The notes under the pieces are model-generated. The model made no database searches. It was not told the origin of the DNA and saw nothing but the letters and a program-made list of their open reading frames with translations. Below, piece after piece: positions 673-8,865 of a DNA stretch of 64,000 nt. The stretch's first letter is position 1, and each line of letters opens with the position of its first letter. Source of the stretch: Chloroflexaceae bacterium (GTDB taxonomy: Bacteria > Chloroflexota > Chloroflexia > Chloroflexales > Chloroflexaceae); contig JANWYD010000011.1 in assembly GCA_025057155.1 (NCBI GenBank), positions 124,001-188,000 of the forward strand, given 5' to 3'. The position numbers were made by a program, and so were the translations under genes.

Positions 673-3204
673 TCAAGCCGAAAGTGATCTGGTGCTGAGG
701 AGCGACTCGAACCTGGCCGCGGGCAGGGGCGGACTGAACAGAAAGCCCTGAAACAGATCACAACCGGCGTCGAGCAGGAAGCTATGCTGCAGTCTGGTTT
801 CAATCCCCTCGGCGACCAGTTGCAGGTTCAGCGAACGCCCCAGGGTCACAATGGCGTGGACTATGCCCCGGTTGCCATTCTGCGAGGAGGCATCGAGCTG
901 AGCTACGAAGGTCCGGTCAACTTTCAGCGTGGTAAGGGGCAGGCGTTGCAGATAGGCCAGCGACGAGTAGCCGGTGCCGAAATCATCGAGGGCCAGGGCG
1001 ACGCCCAGCGCGCGCAGTTCTTGTAGCTGGTGCAAGAGCGACTCGAGATCGCCCACGAGCATACTCTCGGTCAGTTCCAGTTCAACCAGCCTCGGATCAA
1101 GGTTGCTGCCGGCAATCGTGGCGGCGACCATGGACGGAAAGGATGGTTGCGCGAACTGGATCGCCGAAATGTTGACCGCTATGGGAACGAGCAGGAGACC
1201 CTTCTGTCGCCACTCCCTAAGTTGTCGGCAGACCTCTTGCAGGCACCATTCGCCGATCGGGACAATAAGCCCCAGTTCTTCGGCCAGAGGAATGAAGCGT
1301 GCCGGAGGGATCGTGCCCAGCCTGGGATGTTGCCAGCGGATCAGCGCCTCTGCTCCCCTCAGCCGTCCGGCGCGATCCACCTTGGGCTGGTAGAACAGGA
1401 CGAACTCATCGCGCTCCAGCGCCCGGCGCAACTGGTTTTCCAGTTGCAGGCGCTCCAGGGCCATGCGATTGGTGCTGGGATCGAAGAACTGAAAGCTGTT
1501 ACGCAGGGTGCTTTTGGCCCGATACATGGCGACATCGGCGTTGCGTTGCAGCGTTTCGGCATCCTCGCCATCATCGGGAAAGATGCTGGCGCCGATGCTG
1601 GCGCTGAGGAACAGTTCCTGGCCTTTAACCAGAAACGGCATGCGCAGCATCTCGTGCAGGCGTTTAGCGACCTGCGAGACCTGGCTGCTATCGGCGATCT
1701 CCGGCAGGACAAGCATAAACTCATCCCCACCCCGGCGCGCCAGAGTGTCGCTGGCGCGCACGCAGCCCTCGAAGCGACGCGCGAGTTGTACCAGGAGCAT
1801 ATCGCCGACGCTGTGCCCCAGAGTGTCGTTGATCTGTTTGAAACGGTCCAGGTCAATGAACAGCACCGCTACTTTATGCCGGGAGCGCCGAGCGGCCTCA
1901 AGCGCCTGGCGAAGGCGATCCTCGAAGAGGGCGCGGTTGGGCAGCCCGGTCAGCGGGTCATAGTAGGCCTGTACGGCAAGTTGTTGCAGACGTTCATGCT
2001 GCTCAACCGCAATAGCAGCCAACTGGTTCACCAGGTCGAGAAAATGCAGATCATCCCCGTCGGGACGGGCCATTGTTCGCCGGCAGAGGGTCAATACGCC
2101 CGAGAGGGCGGCGGGGTTGAGTTGCAGGCCCCTGCGCCAGCAATAAAGTACTGCTGGCGCGGACGCGCTCTGGGGGGCGGTGATAGCGGTGATCTCCACA
2201 TCGCTGCATGAAATGTTGGCAGGCGTATGCATCGGGGTGCGAGCCAGAGCGTCCAGGGTCGCGACAAGCTCCGTGTCCAGATCGGCGTCGTGGATGCGGA
2301 AGAGATCGGCGTGCTCCAGGGCGAGGGCGACGTATGCCGCGTCACAGTAGCGTTCGCGGGTCAGGGAGACCAGTTCGGTTGCCACCGTTCCGAGCGAGTG
2401 CTGGCGGGCGACCAGTTCGAGCACCCGCTGGCGCGCTACGTCGAGGATCTCTGCGCGTTTGCGTTCCGTGACGCACTCCAGAGTGACCACTGCCCGGCCC
2501 CAGCTAGTGTTGCCACAATGGCTGACGTGTATTGTGAACCACTCGGGCTTGCCCTCGTGTTCTACCGCGTATTCGGCGGCAAAGCGCCCATACCGGCCCT
2601 GCAGCACGTCCCTGAGGCCCGTGGTAATGCTGTGGGCCTCAGGAATAGTTGCAGCGGCCCAGATGGCCGGGTAGTTCGCCCCGACGCCAGCACGCGGTTC
2701 GGAAGGGCTGTCACTCGTCAGCGCCGCACGCCAGTTCTGATTGACGGCGACAATGACGCCATGCTGGTCGAGGATGGCGATCCGGGCCGAGAGACTGTCA
2801 AGCGCTGTGCGCAGCAGGCGCTGAGACTCGAGCAGCAGTTGTTCGGCGCGCTTGCGGGCAGTAATATCGTGGAGCCTGGCCAGGAACGCGGGACGTCCCT
2901 GCCAGGCGATTGGCTCCACGCGCAGTTCGGCGAAGACCACCGCGCCGTCTGGTCGTAGCACTTCGATATCAGAGACTCGATTAACGCGGAGGGGCCGGCC
3001 GAAGGGCTGGTTTATCAAAGACTCGGGAGGGCGTCCGAAGAGGTGGGCGGCCGCTGAGTTGGCGAACCGCACGATGCCGTGATAATCAACGATCAGGGCG
3101 GCATCGGCGTTCTGCGTAATCAGACGCAACAGATCGCCGAACAAGGTGCTCCTGACATTCCGGGCAAGGGGCAAGGGTTCGTCGTACATACCAGAATCCA
3201 CCAT
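673..3204 (-). CDS. PAS-PAS-GGDEF-EAL cyclic di-GMP enzyme
   Basis: An 843-residue soluble sensor enzyme for making or degrading cyclic di-GMP. Domains in order: PAS about 25-115, a second PAS about 130-248, a poorly conserved GAF-like stretch about 255-400, GGDEF about 410-570 and EAL about 585-840. The cyclase motif GGDEF (492-496) is intact. An RxxD inhibitory site (483-486) sits exactly five residues before it. The EAL motif (619-621), AVNIS, ELTES, DDFGTGYSSL (740-749), LKVDR and VAEGIE are also present, so both activities look possible. It lies 33 bp downstream of kaiC on the same strand and is probably the last gene of a kaiB-kaiC-GGDEF/EAL unit. A second ATG at 3189 has a better ribosome site (GGTGGA) and may be the true start. 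Its second PAS resembles that of the protein at 5423-6616. Confidence 0.93.
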   Translation of the reverse strand: MVDSGMYDEPLPLARNVRSTLFGDLLRLITQNADAALIVDYHGIVRFANSAAAHLFGRPPESLINQPFGRPLRVNRVSDIEVLRPDGAVVFAELRVEPIAWQGRPAFLARLHDITARKRAEQLLLESQRLLRTALDSLSARIAILDQHGVIVAVNQNWRAALTSDSPSEPRAGVGANYPAIWAAATIPEAHSITTGLRDVLQGRYGRFAAEYAVEHEGKPEWFTIHVSHCGNTSWGRAVVTLECVTERKRAEILDVARQRVLELVARQHSLGTVATELVSLTRERYCDAAYVALALEHADLFRIHDADLDTELVATLDALARTPMHTPANISCSDVEITAITAPQSASAPAVLYCWRRGLQLNPAALSGVLTLCRRTMARPDGDDLHFLDLVNQLAAIAVEQHERLQQLAVQAYYDPLTGLPNRALFEDRLRQALEAARRSRHKVAVLFIDLDRFKQINDTLGHSVGDMLLVQLARRFEGCVRASDTLARRGGDEFMLVLPEIADSSQVSQVAKRLHEMLRMPFLVKGQELFLSASIGASIFPDDGEDAETLQRNADVAMYRAKSTLRNSFQFFDPSTNRMALERLQLENQLRRALERDEFVLFYQPKVDRAGRLRGAEALIRWQHPRLGTIPPARFIPLAEELGLIVPIGEWCLQEVCRQLREWRQKGLLLVPIAVNISAIQFAQPSFPSMVAATIAGSNLDPRLVELELTESMLVGDLESLLHQLQELRALGVALALDDFGTGYSSLAYLQRLPLTTLKVDRTFVAQLDASSQNGNRGIVHAIVTLGRSLNLQLVAEGIETRLQHSFLLDAGCDLFQGFLFSPPLPAARFESLLSTRSLSA

Positions 3205-3237: not shown

Positions 3238-4770
3238 TTATTCGGCTGGAGGCGCAGTCTCATCATCGCGGAACATGGCCCCAAGCCGCTCCAGTTCACT
3301 CGGTGAGATGTGGGTGAACTGCCCGGACAGGATGCCCGAGATATTGCGAAACGGACGTCCGATGTGCATTCCTTTGCTGTCAATCGAGAACTCGCGGATC
3401 TCTTTGTCGTGGATGGAGCCGCGCATTTTCAGCACCGTCAGCCCGCGCCGCATCTCGCCGAAGAGTTCAACGTACCGCAGGAGGATGATCGAGTCGGTAA
3501 TCGTCGAGATATGGGCCTCGGTAATGGATGAACCGCCAAGCAGCGTGGAGGTGGTGGCGGTATAGAGCCCGACGATCTCCTGGTGCTTGATAAACGACGT
3601 CAGGCCGATCACGAACTCGCGGAAGCCGCGCAGGGTCGAGACGCGTTCGAGGGCCGAGAGGCTGTCCACCGCGATACGTTGCGGTTTGAAGCGCTCAATT
3701 TCGGCCTGCATGGCGATCAATTGATCCTCCAGGCTGGTCACCTCAGGGTAATTCGCTACCACCCGGAGCAGGCCGTCCTTCTCCATCTGCTCGAAATCGA
3801 TCCCCCAGCCCTCGGCGTTGCGGAACAACTGGTCGCGGCTCTCCTCGAAGGCGAAGAGCAGGGCGCGTTCGCCACGTTGCGCGCCAGCGGCCATGAAGGT
3901 GGTCGCCATAAGTGTTTTCCCCGTGCCCGTCGCGCCACTGACGAGGATGATCGAATCGCGAAAGAAACCGCCGCCGCACATCCGGTCCAGTTCAGCGTTC
4001 CCTGAGGTGATCCGCAGATTGGACGAGCGCTGTTTCAGCTCCATGGCCGAGAGCGGGATCATGACGATCCCACGGCCGGGGATCACCGTGAAGGGAAAGC
4101 TGCCTTTCTGGTGCGCGGTGCCGCGGAACTTCAGGATCTCGACGGTACGGCGGCGCTTCTCTTCCTCCATCACGTTGCGGAGGATGACGACGTCATCGGT
4201 GACAAACTCCTCGACGCCGAAGCGGGCGATTTCGCCATTCTCGTGGGCGCGCTCGGCGGTAATCACGCCCGTCACTCCCAGCCGTTTGAGGGTGGAAACG
4301 ATGCGGAACAGTTCGTCACGCACCAGGCGCGTATCCCCGAGGCGGGCGAAGATCGCGCCGAGCGAGTCCATGGAGATGCGCGTGGCCTTTACCCGGCGCA
4401 CGGCATGTTCGATCCGCGCCAGCAGCGCGCCGAGATCATAGGAGCCCATCACCAGCAGTTCCTGGTCGGGTTGCGGTGAGGCGTCCACGAAGGCCCAGAG
4501 ACCCTCGGCCTCCCATTTGGGAATATCCCAGCCGAAGCCGCGCATATTGCGCCGCAGATCGTCGGGAGACTCCTCGAAGGTAACGAAGACCACGCCTTCA
4601 CCCCTCAGCGCGCCCGCGGCGAGGAACTGCGCGGCAAAGACGGTCTTGGCGCTCCCGGCGGTGCCGGAGAGCAATGTGGTTCGGCCACGCGGCAAACCCC
4701 CGTTGGCGATATGGTCGAAACCGGGGATGCCGGTTGGCAGCCGTTCAATGGCATCGTACTCTGCGTTCAA
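3238..4770 (-). CDS. kaiC: Circadian clock ATPase/kinase KaiC
   Basis: A double-RecA ATPase of 510 residues, the usual KaiC length (about 519). CI has Walker A GTAGSAKT (36-43) and the catalytic pair in TFEES (66-67). CII has Walker A GATGTGKT (279-286) and FAFEES (309-310). The CII segment SSITEAHISTITDSI keeps all three cyanobacterial phosphosite positions: T417, S422 and T423, equivalent to T426, S431 and T432 of Synechococcus. The C-terminal tail that KaiA binds in cyanobacteria (about 460-510) is present. The chosen TTG start at 4770 has an ideal AAGGAG at 4779-4784. A longer TTG start at 4815 is possible but has a weaker site. kaiB lies 59 bp upstream and a c-di-GMP enzyme follows. No canonical kaiA is in the window. 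Confidence 0.95.
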   Translation of the reverse strand: MNAEYDAIERLPTGIPGFDHIANGGLPRGRTTLLSGTAGSAKTVFAAQFLAAGALRGEGVVFVTFEESPDDLRRNMRGFGWDIPKWEAEGLWAFVDASPQPDQELLVMGSYDLGALLARIEHAVRRVKATRISMDSLGAIFARLGDTRLVRDELFRIVSTLKRLGVTGVITAERAHENGEIARFGVEEFVTDDVVILRNVMEEEKRRRTVEILKFRGTAHQKGSFPFTVIPGRGIVMIPLSAMELKQRSSNLRITSGNAELDRMCGGGFFRDSIILVSGATGTGKTLMATTFMAAGAQRGERALLFAFEESRDQLFRNAEGWGIDFEQMEKDGLLRVVANYPEVTSLEDQLIAMQAEIERFKPQRIAVDSLSALERVSTLRGFREFVIGLTSFIKHQEIVGLYTATTSTLLGGSSITEAHISTITDSIILLRYVELFGEMRRGLTVLKMRGSIHDKEIREFSIDSKGMHIGRPFRNISGILSGQFTHISPSELERLGAMFRDDETAPPAE

Positions 4771-4829
4771 CGCGGTTCTCCTTGGATCACCCCCTGAGTC
4801 GCGTCCACGGGGCAAGCGCTGCGGCCCCT

Positions 4830-5111
4830 CTAGGTCGGTGGCAGGTTGAGGGCATTCAGCACTTCGGACGGGTCAGCGGCAAGATCGCCAATCACCCGGC
4901 GCTGGGGGAGTGGCTGCTCCTTGATCAGGGTCGGGGTGGCGAGGATCTTGTGGATTTCTGCTTGCACCGGGTCCGCCAGAACATCAATGATCGTAAAATC
5001 GCACTCGTAAGCGGCAAGTTCGTGCTCGCAGAGACGGCGCAAGACGGCAATCGCCCGCTCTGACCGTGGCGTGCGGCCGGCAATATACAACTGAAGCACA
5101 ATCCTGGTCAC
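4830..5111 (-). CDS. kaiB: Circadian clock protein KaiB
   Basis: A 93-residue thioredoxin-like fold-switching protein (KaiB is usually 95-105 residues). Recognised from LQLYIAGRTPRSERAI at the N-terminus, the central IIDVLADP and the signature KILATPTLIKEQPLPQRRVI, which includes the cis-proline. KaiB binds the CI ring of KaiC and turns the phosphorylation cycle towards dephosphorylation. The GTG start at 5111 is chosen because the family begins just before the first strand and GGGCGAG lies upstream. A longer in-frame reading to 5201 adds a residue stretch unlike any KaiB. It is the first gene of the presumed kaiBC operon. Confidence 0.93.
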   Translation of the reverse strand: MTRIVLQLYIAGRTPRSERAIAVLRRLCEHELAAYECDFTIIDVLADPVQAEIHKILATPTLIKEQPLPQRRVIGDLAADPSEVLNALNLPPT

Positions 5112-5314
5112 TGAGACGCTCGCCCTGCCCCGCTTGCGGGGCCTAAGAGCCAATCCGACGAACCACTGATGATGCGGGCCGTTCCAGCACGCGCCTGCCA
5201 CAGGAGAGATCTCCTCTCTCCCGAACTGTGGTGCAGCCGAATAATTGAAAGCAAGCCCCTCACGTCCACTCTAAGGAGAGCTGCGAGTGCTCCAAATCCT
5301 TTTTTTACCCCGGT

Positions 5315-5320
5315 ATTATA
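5315..5320 (-). promoter_or_regulatory. Candidate -10 element for kaiBC
   Basis: A perfect TATAAT on the minus strand in the 311-bp gap between the PAS gene and kaiB. No good -35 lies at 17 bp (TAGCCA is the best), so it may need an activator or an extended leader. The predicted leader is about 195 nt. The rest of the 5112-5422 gap shows no gene. Confidence 0.45.
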
Positions 5321-5422
5321 CCGTGCAACCGCAGGAATGGCTAGTGTGACAACAAGACCTCCCGGCCGTCCAATCGCCGGCCTGATGCGGCAGAGTTTCC
5401 CGGCCTGCGCCAGTATTATATG

Positions 5423-6616
5423 TCAACGGTGCGGTTCGAGCGTAGCGAGGCCCAGGGCGCGGGAGCGGTAGTAGGCCGCAAGATGGCCCATCAGTTCCAG
5501 CACGAGCAGGCGTCCCTCTTCGAGATAGGCCTGCTGGCGGGTGACGGGCGCATCGGCGCTGACGGCGCGGATTGCCGCCAGATGAATTTCTACAACGTCA
5601 CGCGGGCTGGCGGCTTCAGCGCCGAGGCGCTCGCCAAGCTCTCGCAGCGGGGCGGAAGGGAGTTGTTCGTCGAACGGGCGACGCCTGAGAGCTTCATCAA
5701 CAAGCCCTGTATAGAGCGTGACCGCCTCGCGAAAAGCCTCCGGGTTGCGCCGCCGGAGGGGCTGGCCGGCTTCGGCGACAATCTGGCCGCTTTGCGGGCG
5801 CGAGATCCGCTCTACGTCGCGCAGTTCACGCTCCACGGCCTGAAGCCGCTGGCGCAGCTCCTCCGCCTCGGCGGCGGCGCGCGCCGCCCGTCGTTGTTCG
5901 GTAATGTCGCTATGGGCCACCACCAGGCCGCGCTGCGCGCCCTGCAACGGCAACACGCGCATTAAGAACCAGCGCTCCTCGCTGGCGCTATGGCACGGGT
6001 ACTCCAATTCGTAGAGGGGCAATTCCCCGCGCAAGACAGCCTGCATCCCCGCAAGCACCTGTTCCGCCTCGGCGGCGTTGTGGCCTCGGGCATTCTCGCA
6101 CACACGGAAGTAGTTGGTTCCCACCCCCGTTGCGCGAAGGTTCGGGTCCCCATTCGTGCGCGCGAATTCGCGCCAGGCCTCGTTGACGGCGATGATCGTC
6201 CCGTGTTCATCGAGCACGGCGATATGGACGGTCAGGGAGTTGAGGATGGCCCAGTTAAACGCCTCGGCGTGGCGCAGGGCCTCCTGGGCGCGACGGTGCT
6301 CGGTGATGTCGCGCAGGGAAATCAGGTGAGCCGGCACCCCGTCCCACTCCGTAGCGACCACGCGCATCTCAGCCACGTGGTGGTCGCCCTGGGGGTGCAG
6401 AACGTCAATTTCGGCCCGATCGCCCGACAGCAGCGGAAAGCCAAACACCTCGCCGAGCAGCGCATCGGCGGGACGGGCCAGGAGTTGTTCGGCGGCAGGA
6501 TTGAGGAAGCGCACGCGCCCTTCGGCATCAACCACGATGATGCCATCAGCGTTCTCGGCGATGATCTGGCGCAACCGTCGGTCGTCGGCCACAGGCTGCT
6601 GCTCAAGGGGTTGCAT
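5423..6616 (-). CDS. PAS-PAS protein with C-terminal KaiA/RsbU-like domain
   Basis: A 397-residue soluble protein. PAS 1 is about 15-105 and PAS 2 about 120-240, each followed by an ITE-R-R linker. A coiled coil about 240-275 comes next, then an all-helical domain about 295-390. That last domain contains SPRDVVEIHLAAIRAV (337-352) and LLVLELMGHLAAYYRS (370-385), which resemble the 'PE-IV-IH' and 'LLEVM--YGLAYRE' helices of the RsbU N-terminal domain. This domain shares a fold superfamily with the KaiA C-terminal domain. There is no kinase, phosphatase or GGDEF domain. Its place directly upstream of kaiBC on the same strand, in a locus without kaiA, suggests it is a KaiA-like regulator of KaiC. 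That is inference. The start has AGGAGTG upstream. The fold call is by eye and needs a profile or structure check. Confidence 0.8.
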   Translation of the reverse strand: MQPLEQQPVADDRRLRQIIAENADGIIVVDAEGRVRFLNPAAEQLLARPADALLGEVFGFPLLSGDRAEIDVLHPQGDHHVAEMRVVATEWDGVPAHLISLRDITEHRRAQEALRHAEAFNWAILNSLTVHIAVLDEHGTIIAVNEAWREFARTNGDPNLRATGVGTNYFRVCENARGHNAAEAEQVLAGMQAVLRGELPLYELEYPCHSASEERWFLMRVLPLQGAQRGLVVAHSDITEQRRAARAAAEAEELRQRLQAVERELRDVERISRPQSGQIVAEAGQPLRRRNPEAFREAVTLYTGLVDEALRRRPFDEQLPSAPLRELGERLGAEAASPRDVVEIHLAAIRAVSADAPVTRQQAYLEEGRLLVLELMGHLAAYYRSRALGLATLEPHR

Positions 6617-6671: not shown

Positions 6672-6700
6672 ATGATCGCCACGTACTGCGCCTGTGTCAA
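6672..6700 (-). promoter_or_regulatory. Promoter of the PAS/KaiA-like gene
   Basis: A perfect TTGACA (6695-6700, minus strand), a 17-bp spacer and a weaker GATCAT (6672-6677). It separates this gene from the pot operon upstream and gives a leader of about 50 nt. Confidence 0.5.
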
Positions 6701-6787: not shown

Positions 6788-7939
6788 CTACCGGCCTTTG
6801 ACCGCCGTCCATAAATCGGTGAACACAGCCGTTTGTTCGTTGCGGACAGCCCACTCCAGGCGCTGGCGCACCTGATCGTCAGGGGCGAAACCCTCGGCGT
6901 ACAGCGCCTGCATTTCCTCCGACAGCAGCGGCAGAGCATCCTGGTTTGGCGTCAGGAACCCGCTCCATTCGGCATTCTGAGCGGCTACTTCGGGGTCCAG
7001 CAGAAAGTTGATGAATACGTGAGCAGTATAGCTACTGGGCGAGTCGCCCACAATCACCAGGTTGTCCATCCAGATCATGCCGCCTTCTTTTGGTATCACG
7101 AAGCGGATATCGGCGTTGCCCGTAAACTCGTCCTCCAGACCGGTGCGCGCTTGCAGGGCCGAGCCGCTCCAGGCGTGGGCCAGGATGTACTCCTCCGAGG
7201 CCAGTTTGCGGTTGACGTCTGAACTGTTGTACGCCGCCAGGTAGGGTTTCTGGGCGATCAGCAACTCCTCAACCTGCCGCAGAATGGCCGGGTCGGTCTC
7301 GTTGAGCGAGTGCCCCAGATAGCGTAGCGCCGCGCCGGGTGTTTCGCGCTCGTCGTCGAGCATACTGAACCTTCCCCGATAGGCCGCGATCATGTTGGGA
7401 TCGAAGAGGGCCGCCCAGCTATCAATGCCGGCGGGGAAGGATTTGGCATTGTACGCGATGCCGGTAATGCCGTAAAAATACGGTACCGAGATGGCATTCC
7501 CAGGGTCGAAGGGCTGGTTGAGCAGATCGGGGTCGAGGTGTACTAGATTGGGCAGCAGGCTCTTGTCGAGGGGAGCGGCCAGATTCTCGGCGGCCATGAT
7601 CGTCACCGCGTAATCCGAGGGCGCGACCAGGTCGTATCCCGAATTACCCGCGCGCAGTTTGGCGATCATGTCCTCGTTTGAGTCGTAGGTGTCAACGATC
7701 ACCCGGACCCCGTATTCAGCCTCAAACTGCGCCAGCAGATCGGGGTCAATATAGTCGTTCCAGTTATAGAAGTAAAGTTGCCGGGAGAGTTTGTTGCGAT
7801 CGACGCCTGCCGGCGGCGTTCCGTTGCCCGGCGTGGCTCCGCCATATTCGTTGCCGGGGCTGGCCGTGCCGCCGCCGCACGCCGCGAGGATCGTGAGGGT
7901 CAGGGCGAGCACGAAGCCCATCAGACCGTGTTTCGTCAT
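6788..7939 (-). CDS. potD: Spermidine/putrescine-binding lipoprotein PotD
   Basis: A 383-residue extracytoplasmic solute-binding protein for polyamine uptake. It begins with a lipoprotein signal (MTKHGLMGFVLALTLTILAAC), the cysteine being the lipidated residue. The mature part starts with a low-complexity Gly/Thr/Pro linker. Family features include LYFYNWNDYIDPDLLAQFE, YDLVAPSDYAV and an acidic ligand cleft typical of PotD/PotF (SBP_bac_8 type). The ATG at 7939 has AGGAGGAA eight bases upstream. It is the last gene of potABCD, 59 bp after potC. Whether the ligand is spermidine, putrescine or another amine cannot be told from sequence. Confidence 0.93.
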   Translation of the reverse strand: MTKHGLMGFVLALTLTILAACGGGTASPGNEYGGATPGNGTPPAGVDRNKLSRQLYFYNWNDYIDPDLLAQFEAEYGVRVIVDTYDSNEDMIAKLRAGNSGYDLVAPSDYAVTIMAAENLAAPLDKSLLPNLVHLDPDLLNQPFDPGNAISVPYFYGITGIAYNAKSFPAGIDSWAALFDPNMIAAYRGRFSMLDDERETPGAALRYLGHSLNETDPAILRQVEELLIAQKPYLAAYNSSDVNRKLASEEYILAHAWSGSALQARTGLEDEFTGNADIRFVIPKEGGMIWMDNLVIVGDSPSSYTAHVFINFLLDPEVAAQNAEWSGFLTPNQDALPLLSEEMQALYAEGFAPDDQVRQRLEWAVRNEQTAVFTDLWTAVKGR

Positions 7940-7998
7940 CGAGTTGTTCCTCCTGAGACTACGCGGTGCATCCGTCAGGGATGGGCCCGACGGGAAGG

Positions 7999-8865
7999 TC
8001 ACTGTCGCCGTTGCACCGACTGCGACAGAACCACCAGGGTTATCGAGAGCACCAGCATAAGGGTGGAAATGGCATTAATCTCCGGCGTCACGGCGCGACG
8101 GACCTTATTGTATACCTCGACCGGCAACAGCGAGGTGCCCGGCCCGGAGAGAAACAGGCTGATGATAAAGTCATCGAGCGAGAGCGTAAAGGCCAGCAAG
8201 GCCCCACCGATGACGCCGGGGAGGATAAGCGGAAAGGTCACCCGCCAGAAGACATTCCAGCCATTGGCCCCTAGATCGGCGGCGGCCTCTTCCAGGCGCC
8301 GGTCGAAGTTCTTGAGGCTAGTGCGCACCACTACAACCACGAACGAGACGCTGAAGGCGATATGGCCAATGATCACCGTGGTCAGACTACGGCGCACTAT
8401 TTCATCGGTGAGCAGACGGATCAGGTCGAAGACCAGTGCTGAGAAGGCCAGCAGCGCTACGGCCATCACAATCTCGGGAATGACGATCGGAAGGTGGATC
8501 AGCGTATCTACCGTGGTGCGCCCGCGGAATCGGTGCCGTTCCAGGGCCATGGCCAGCAACGTGCCCAGTACGGTCGCGACGAAGGTGGAGACCAGCGCCA
8601 CGTACAGCGTATTCAGCGTCGCCCCCATCAGGCGCTGGTTGGCAAACAGACGAAGATACCAGTCGAGGGTGAAGCCGGTCCAGCGCACGCCGAACTGGTC
8701 GCGGGTGAATGAAAAGAGCGCCAGAATAGCGATCGGCAGGTAGAGGAAGAGATAAATGAGCACCGCGTAGACCGTAAGGGCCAGGCCGCTCCAGGTCAGG
8801 CGACCCTGTTCGAGAGCCGGGCGGGCCGCCCGTGGCTGTGCGGCGGTCGAGGTGGCTTCAATCAT
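7999..8865 (-). CDS. potC: Polyamine ABC transporter permease PotC
   Basis: A 288-residue inner-membrane permease with about six membrane segments. The cytoplasmic EAA loop (EEAAADLGANGWNVFWRVTF) docks on the PotA ATPase. The C-terminal LSLDDFIISLFLSGPG is typical of PotC. The ATG at 8865 overlaps the potB stop by 4 bp (ATGA) and has GGAGGAGG upstream, so translation is coupled. Confidence 0.93.
   Translation of the reverse strand: MIEATSTAAQPRAARPALEQGRLTWSGLALTVYAVLIYLFLYLPIAILALFSFTRDQFGVRWTGFTLDWYLRLFANQRLMGATLNTLYVALVSTFVATVLGTLLAMALERHRFRGRTTVDTLIHLPIVIPEIVMAVALLAFSALVFDLIRLLTDEIVRRSLTTVIIGHIAFSVSFVVVVVRTSLKNFDRRLEEAAADLGANGWNVFWRVTFPLILPGVIGGALLAFTLSLDDFIISLFLSGPGTSLLPVEVYNKVRRAVTPEINAISTLMLVLSITLVVLSQSVQRRQ

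Follow-up and report, generated by a model that had tools for sequence, protein, structure and literature searches.

Self-sustained Kai clocks are credited to KaiA, and to our knowledge earlier surveys found KaiA almost only in cyanobacteria. What acts on KaiC where kaiB and kaiC stand without a canonical kaiA is the question raised by a locus of a Chloroflexaceae bacterium. The locus lies in the window, the whole stretch of 64,000 nucleotides analysed here (contig JANWYD010000011.1, positions 124,001 to 188,000). On the minus strand, a gene for a 397-amino-acid protein is followed by kaiB, kaiC and a gene for a PAS-PAS-GGDEF-EAL enzyme. The protein begins with two PAS domains, connected by a helical linker, and ends in a helical domain, here called KaiA-C. 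This gene probably encodes a KaiA-type partner of the KaiB-KaiC system, in which the PAS pair would tune the drive on KaiC. The features concerned are as follows (positions are those of the window).

5423..6616, minus strand: PAS-PAS-KaiA-C gene, 397 amino acids, the main finding (open reading frame, Pfam and predicted structure)
6287..6583, minus strand: PAS domain 1, residues about 12-110 (Pfam PAS; predicted PAS fold)
5888..6244, minus strand: PAS domain 2, residues 125-243 (Pfam PAS_4 3.4e-18; predicted PAS fold)
5441..5764, minus strand: KaiA-C-like helical domain, residues 285-392 (AlphaFold2 and Foldseek)
4830..5108, minus strand: kaiB, likely start GTG 5108; the open reading frame, 4830-5201, extends to GTG 5201 (Pfam KaiB 4e-20; PDB KaiB matches)
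3238..4770, minus strand: kaiC, 510 amino acids, TTG start at 4770 preceded by a good ribosome site as read by eye; open reading frame to 4815 (NCBIfam circ_KaiC)
3502..3507, minus strand: KaiC Ser-Thr codons, HIST motif, residues 422-423 (alignment to solved KaiC chains)
3241..3360, minus strand: KaiC C-terminal tail, residues 471-510, with A-loop and presumed KaiA-binding peptide (aligned with solved chains)

The coordinates given in the initial annotation are correct, and both peptides quoted there are present in the protein. The locus had also been described as having kaiB and kaiC without canonical kaiA. This description holds: Pfam KaiB is found at 4e-20, circ_KaiC is over its cut-off and Pfam KaiA is below its own. 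In none of 150 genomes of the class did Pfam KaiA reach its cut-off, and the window's own genome gave no match to it at E<=10. Among 14 control genomes it reached the cut-off in one and gave any match in five, Synechococcus elongatus included.

Co-occurrence with KaiC and conservation of gene order

Searches of 82 Chloroflexales genomes were carried out with KaiC (E<=1e-100) and with A2, an alignment of the helical domain used as search profile. The domain was found in 40 genomes and KaiC in 42, and all 40 lie within the 42 (Fisher 2e-21, kinship ignored). Among 400 genomes sampled from the phylum, a set that shares genomes with the order search, the domain and KaiC were found in 33 each, 32 of them common (Fisher 6e-45). 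Loci L031-L046 were not counted as extra genomes; in the cases compared (e.g. L035 and G265) their contigs agree in length with contigs of genomes of the G series. Nearly all KaiC-bearing Chloroflexales genomes searched encode a KaiA-C-like protein at the kai locus.

Conservation of the gene order in relatives had been proposed as a check on the link to kaiBC, and it was found: in 38 of the 40 domain-bearing genomes of the order, window included, the KaiA-like gene immediately precedes kaiB and shares its strand. In G094 the contig ends inside the KaiA-like gene, the end of which adjoins kaiB and kaiC, and in G281 the KaiA-like gene and kaiC are on separate contigs. Outside the order, the same arrangement was seen in four of the five domain-bearing genomes of the phylum sample; G073 differs. 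The gap to kaiB measures at least 221 nucleotides in the window. Four loci have gaps of 129-234, and apart from L155 the others examined stay below 100. Locus L155 (3307-4500), from a near relative, has a gap of 748 nucleotides, whereas elsewhere it is below 250.

A few genomes depart from the pattern. G161 has KaiC but lacks a KaiB match, and the contig with its KaiC gave no match to A2; in G332, which has KaiC without a domain match, KaiC is cut at the contig start. G315 was at first taken as an exception (KaiC without an A2 match) and this was rejected, as a receiver plus helical-domain gene was found before kaiB. That gene matches Response_reg at 2e-12 and neither Pfam KaiA nor RsbU_N. Its helical part has a sole PDB match, to Nostoc KaiA (1r5q, E 0.44), with hhalign E of 0.0019 to KaiA and 0.045 to A2. 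This protein (L160:1246-2427) is perhaps nearer to cyanobacterial KaiA and a possible bridge between the groups.

Predicted fold of the helical domain

The domain alone was modelled by AlphaFold2 from 16 aligned sequences with a mean predicted local distance difference test score (pLDDT) of 88.6. The full-length model has a mean pLDDT of 80.4 and a predicted template modelling score of 0.40, with long helices at residues 292-315, 321-333, 338-353 and 358-392. In Foldseek against the PDB, the five best matches were KaiA C-domain chains (probability 1.00, E 0.15-0.27). In a second structure comparison KaiA took 8 of the first 9 rows (Z 9.6-10.4). No RsbU chain was among the 50 structure matches listed, which carries no weight against RsbU. 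The predicted model has the four-helix fold of the KaiA C-domain, with modest statistics and one unrelated fold tied. The structural kinship with KaiA that was suspected from the sequence pattern is to that extent supported.

Sequence comparison of the helical domain

When the domain was searched alone in Pfam, RsbU_N (E 0.027) and KaiA (E 0.23) were both below threshold. Comparison by hhalign gave E 0.0017-0.0019 to KaiA (27-28% identity over 50-51 columns) and E 0.13 to RsbU. With profile A2, the score of the real sequence was reached in 3000 shuffles 1 and 0 times with two KaiA C-domains and 13 times with RsbU; with a second profile, A1, it was reached 0, 0 and 77 times respectively. The likeness to the RsbU N-terminal domain claimed in the initial annotation is thus retained in part: Pfam slightly prefers RsbU_N, but hhalign and the shuffles fit KaiA better. 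Plasmid searches for KaiA3/KaiA gave no full C-domain coverage, or no match, among the records listed, 20 of 36.

The stretch aligned to KaiA consists of VVEIH and the last helix, RLLVLELMGHLAAYYR, opposite VLEIH and RLTLIDVIAHLCEMYR of KaiA. All 31 PAS-type sequences, the window included, have residues H345, R369, Y383 and R384, and KaiA has H, R, Y and R in these columns. Identity is 19-22% to cyanobacterial KaiA in alignment A6, and 40% (L062) and 45% (L064) to kai-linked receiver-headed relatives in A2 (BLAST E 1e-20 or better). Among the 16 aligned sequences 25 of 124 positions are invariant. Because of these invariant positions, and because the domain tracks kaiC across genomes, it represents more than chance. 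For the helical domain, the genomic evidence is strong and the sequence support is weak.

The KaiC partner

In the window KaiC, the double ATPase domain, the Ser-Thr sites and the C-terminal tail are all present, and circ_KaiC scores 620.9 bits against a cut-off of 546.25. Among solved chains the window KaiC scores 716 bits with 8zn5, up to 592 with other double-domain chains of the group, and 315 with 8db3 and 8dba, which we take to be Rhodobacter-type KaiC. HIST stands at the phosphorylation sites in 41 of 41 aligned KaiC sequences, which come from 40 loci and the window and include near-copies; the tail shows good conservation. The tail had been said to be kept in this KaiC, and both the alignment with solved chains and its conservation in relatives agree. 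Such conservation would fit a tail-gripping partner, though other pressures could produce the same.

The PAS half and the variation of the head

The window protein gave no real match with a receiver profile built in this analysis (best domain E 0.5) and no Pfam match for a PP2C phosphatase domain. Its PAS half had no match at 1e-5 among PDB sequences, hence no cofactor can be assigned; in Foldseek, heme, flavin and other PAS proteins appear alike among the 50 matches listed. An invariant His is absent from the first PAS domain among 15 sequences. In the second, Cys173 and His235 are kept in 30 of 31 sequences.

At the kai position of the 40 genomes of the order, three kinds of head were seen: PAS-PAS in 27, a receiver in 9 and receiver-PAS-PAS in 4 (G308, G281, G304 and G259; kaiBC is not on the contig of G281). 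Pfam was run on the window protein and 17 other KaiA-C proteins; the remaining heads were labelled PAS-PAS from their BLAST similarity to the window protein, or receiver from an alignment. In the receiver-PAS-PAS loci L134 and L137 a Pfam receiver was found with its phosphate-accepting Asp kept. L138 and L139 have no Pfam receiver at 0.01. In both, a degenerate receiver is detected with a profile made from ten of these receivers, including L134 and L137 (E 1.8e-16 and 4.7e-13), and its Asp is replaced by Gly or Ser.

The KaiC tree has the 25 PAS-PAS rows as one side of a branch with a Shimodaira-Hasegawa-like approximate likelihood ratio support of 93. Next outward are L139, then L134 with L138, then the receiver-headed L128 with L150. 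This tree was made by a quick method and has several long branches, and the KaiC of G281, which is in two frames, was left out. The KaiA-C domain tree, built on few columns, sets PAS-PAS and L139 apart (97/92), with L134, L137 and L138 on the side of the receiver-headed rows. Both trees are unrooted, and the direction from receiver to PAS-PAS is taken because receiver heads occur outside the family. The simplest reading of these sequences would be a receiver, then a receiver with PAS-PAS, then decay and loss of the receiver. The earlier proposal of a PAS pair in place of the KaiA pseudo-receiver therefore stands as to the PAS pair and is amended as to the route: the receiver would first have been joined by the PAS pair and then replaced.

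A third head type was seen in a kai-linked KaiA-C protein at L063:9510-10373. It is GAF-like by eye and has no Pfam match at 0.01.

Unlinked copies and neighbouring genes

In 19 loci fetched, the window's own genome included, a receiver-headed KaiA-C gene is carried away from kaiBC (this set excludes L145, which runs into the contig end). The receiver Asp is kept in 18 of them and the nineteenth is cut in the alignment. At 17 of the 19 loci the gene that follows on the strand has a histidine-kinase-like end, judged by eye from its last residues and Pfam-confirmed in the three tested; of the remaining two, L136 is at a contig end and L132 is without such a gene. In the window's own genome (L059:7448-9576, G000 contig 28) the unlinked receiver-KaiA-C gene overlaps a PAS-histidine kinase gene. 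The unlinked pair may provide the Kai system with a second input. At L064:7570-8775 a PAS-headed protein, histidine-kinase-like by eye, is encoded directly upstream of a receiver-headed KaiA-C gene and kaiBC, and it is a possible cognate kinase. Several PAS-PAS genomes, among them G118, G134, G231 and G061, have a single domain match, the kai-linked copy, so that the PAS-PAS protein is the sole candidate KaiA found there.

The other features around the window locus are given below.

673..3204, minus strand: PAS-PAS-GGDEF-EAL gene, 843 amino acids, downstream of kaiC (Pfam)
6672..6700, minus strand: promoter-like site upstream of the PAS-PAS-KaiA-C gene (consensus scan only)
5315..5343, minus strand: promoter-like site in the gap upstream of kaiB (consensus scan only)
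6788-8002, minus strand: solute-binding protein gene upstream, same strand (Pfam SBP_bac_8)

The GGDEF and EAL motifs are present in the window enzyme (673-3204). Aligned over 231 columns, its PAS pair and the one in the KaiA-like protein show 37% identity. Of 23 PAS-PAS loci fetched with sufficient sequence, 21 have a GGDEF-EAL gene after kaiC, and so does the window. Such a gene follows kaiC in 0 of 11 receiver-type or other-headed loci and 0 of 2 receiver-PAS-PAS loci. The count leaves out L155, L158 and L166 (contig end or no kaiC), L128, L138 and L146 (short downstream sequence) and L137; the two PAS-PAS loci without the gene are L126 and L163. The enzyme is a possible cyclic di-GMP output of the clock. 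Photosynthetic reaction-centre genes were found in 63 of the 82 genomes of the order, the window's own included: in 40 of 42 with KaiC and 23 of 40 without.

Proposed mechanism and alternatives

A precedent for the proposed action is KaiA3, which, in the part covered of a 2024 paper (PMC11372060), interacts with KaiC3, promotes KaiC3 phosphorylation and forms a damped oscillator with KaiB3. From what was computed here (the predicted fold, the conserved order of the genes, the co-occurrence with KaiC, its tail and phosphorylation sites, and the series of heads) we infer the following steps. The C-terminal helical domain would be homologous to the C-domain of KaiA and KaiA3. By analogy with these proteins, its dimer may grip the C-terminal tail of KaiC. 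This would expose the A-loop and favour KaiC autophosphorylation at Ser422-Thr423, and KaiB would oppose the action, presumably by sequestration. The PAS pair would stand in place of the KaiA pseudo-receiver or the KaiA3 receiver. A ligand, cofactor or redox state sensed by it would tune the drive on KaiC, entraining a clock or timer. The clock may thus read its surroundings directly through the sensor head.

Several results weigh against this explanation. The Foldseek E for KaiA is only 0.15-0.27, and a lower-ranked leghemoglobin also has a probability of 0.92. The stressosome N-domain 3zta ties with KaiA (Z 10.2, root-mean-square deviation 2.7 over 111), and since helical bundles reach such middling Z by chance, the fold alone is no proof. 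None of the sequence scores reaches a curated cut-off: Pfam gives 12.1 bits against 22.2 for KaiA and 15.1 against 25.5 for RsbU_N, and hhalign assigns KaiA a probability of just 15%. Pfam slightly favours RsbU_N, which at E<=1 is found in 6 of 26 relatives and KaiA in 1 of 26. Unrelated Pfam families outscore both in single relatives (bDLD3 2.7e-4, FIGL1_N 4.9e-4). In PDB profile searches with A1 and A2 neither KaiA nor RsbU is listed, and the best matches are unrelated chains (E 0.006 with A2, 0.2 with A1). KaiA residues M241, D242, E251, L265 and D267 are called invariant in cyanobacteria in the sections covered of a 2021 study (PMC8113500). None is identical in the window in an alignment read by eye, with L265 to Val and D267 to Glu conservative. 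At least 221 nucleotides and a promoter-like site lie between the PAS-PAS-KaiA-C gene and kaiB in the window. The genome counts are not independent observations. G073 has the domain with no KaiB match and just a distant KaiC-like protein. Its PAS plus KaiA-C protein (L068:1625-2872) reflects either kai genes missing from the assembly or a non-Kai use.

These points bear differently on the alternatives. The protein could be a KaiA-C homologue that binds KaiC or KaiB without stimulating the kinase, acting under sensor control as a brake, titrator or adaptor while KaiC, like that of KaiA-less timers, phosphorylates itself. The partial retention of KaiA residues would suit this. So would the KaiA-independent phosphorylation predicted for KaiC2 and KaiC3 homologues in the part covered of a 2017 survey (PMC5520375), though KaiA3 was later reported to stimulate KaiC3. 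The conserved KaiC tail and the KaiA3 precedent (PMC11372060, in the part covered) argue the other way, and we regard this alternative as unlikely. Still less probable is an RsbU_N relative acting in a partner-switching or stressosome-like stress pathway, to which the adjacency of kaiBC would be secondary. Both Pfam matches are weak, but that to RsbU_N is the stronger (0.027 against 0.23 for KaiA) and is seen in more of the relatives, and the stressosome N-domain ties with KaiA in structure. However, the protein lacks a PP2C phosphatase domain, hhalign and the shuffles favour KaiA, and the domain tracks kaiC and adjoins kaiB.

The protein might, lastly, be mainly a PAS sensor that signals to the neighbouring PAS-PAS-GGDEF-EAL enzyme, with kaiBC just sharing the neighbourhood. 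The PAS pairs of both proteins are homologous, and the enzyme gene accompanies PAS-PAS heads (21 of 23 loci and the window) and none of the 11 receiver-type or other heads. But the KaiA-C domain and kaiBC occur without the enzyme in receiver-headed relatives and at the PAS-PAS loci L126 and L163, and we give this account very little credence. A KaiA-type partner of KaiB-KaiC with a tuning PAS pair is the explanation we prefer.

A wider proposal joins these observations, and we offer it only tentatively, as less likely than not. In photosynthetic Chloroflexales, KaiA itself would be the environmental sensor of a KaiA-driven oscillator or timer; PAS domains would have been inserted between receiver and KaiA-C, and the receiver would have decayed and been lost. 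In many of these genomes a separate input would come from a second KaiA-C protein, headed by a receiver and paired with a histidine kinase of its own, and the GGDEF-EAL enzyme with its related PAS pair would be a cyclic di-GMP read-out. Apart from this wider proposal, a KaiA-C-like protein at nearly all KaiC-bearing kai loci searched, with interchangeable heads (receiver, PAS), would mark the KaiA domain as a general output module onto KaiC, and clock evolution and direct sensory entrainment would become testable in vitro with three proteins.

Comparison with known systems

Since receiver-headed KaiA3 was described in a 2024 paper, a protein of this kind is only partly new. In the part covered of that paper (PMC11372060), KaiA3 orthologues are reported from Roseiflexus and Chloroflexus, with kaiA3B3C3 synteny except in Chloroflexus aggregans, and the cognate kinase of receiver-headed KaiA3 is called not yet identified. 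The C. aggregans exception likely arises from an unlinked receiver-headed copy being seen while the PAS-PAS copy holds the kai position. This account leans on G235, which we take to be C. aggregans. The present results offer an explanation for the synteny exception and candidate kinases for receiver-headed KaiA3. The word PAS is absent from the main text of PMC11372060. In the parts covered of the open-access literature, including PMC5520375, PMC8113500, PMC3150298, PMC11788075 and PMC13421787, no mention was found of a PAS-headed KaiA, its PAS-PAS form or the intermediates.

With KaiB-KaiC timers that lack KaiA (Rhodobacter KaiC2 type) the locus has kaiB and kaiC in common. These have no KaiA, whereas the window has a KaiA-like gene, and its KaiC scores higher with other chains. 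According to the sections covered of PMC11372060, the KaiA fold had otherwise been detected just in RsbU, and the RsbU N-terminal domain (PF08673) has a related fold. The sequence match to it here is weak, and the better one by Pfam. Unlike RsbU, the window protein is without a PP2C domain, and the match is weaker than that of KaiA by hhalign and shuffles. With KaiA of cyanobacteria (PF07688) it shares the predicted C-domain fold, the position before kaiBC and the H/R/Y/R columns, but it is without the pseudo-receiver and below the Pfam cut-off. With KaiA3 (receiver and KaiA-like C-domain; Synechocystis Sll0485) it shares the C-domain type, the place upstream of kaiB and kaiC, and a partner KaiC with Ser-Thr sites. 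KaiA3 has an N-terminal receiver where the window protein has two PAS domains, and receiver-headed relatives share the kai position. It is thus a KaiA-C-like protein of new architecture, neither canonical KaiA nor KaiA3 by their defining features, which by analogy probably works as these two do.

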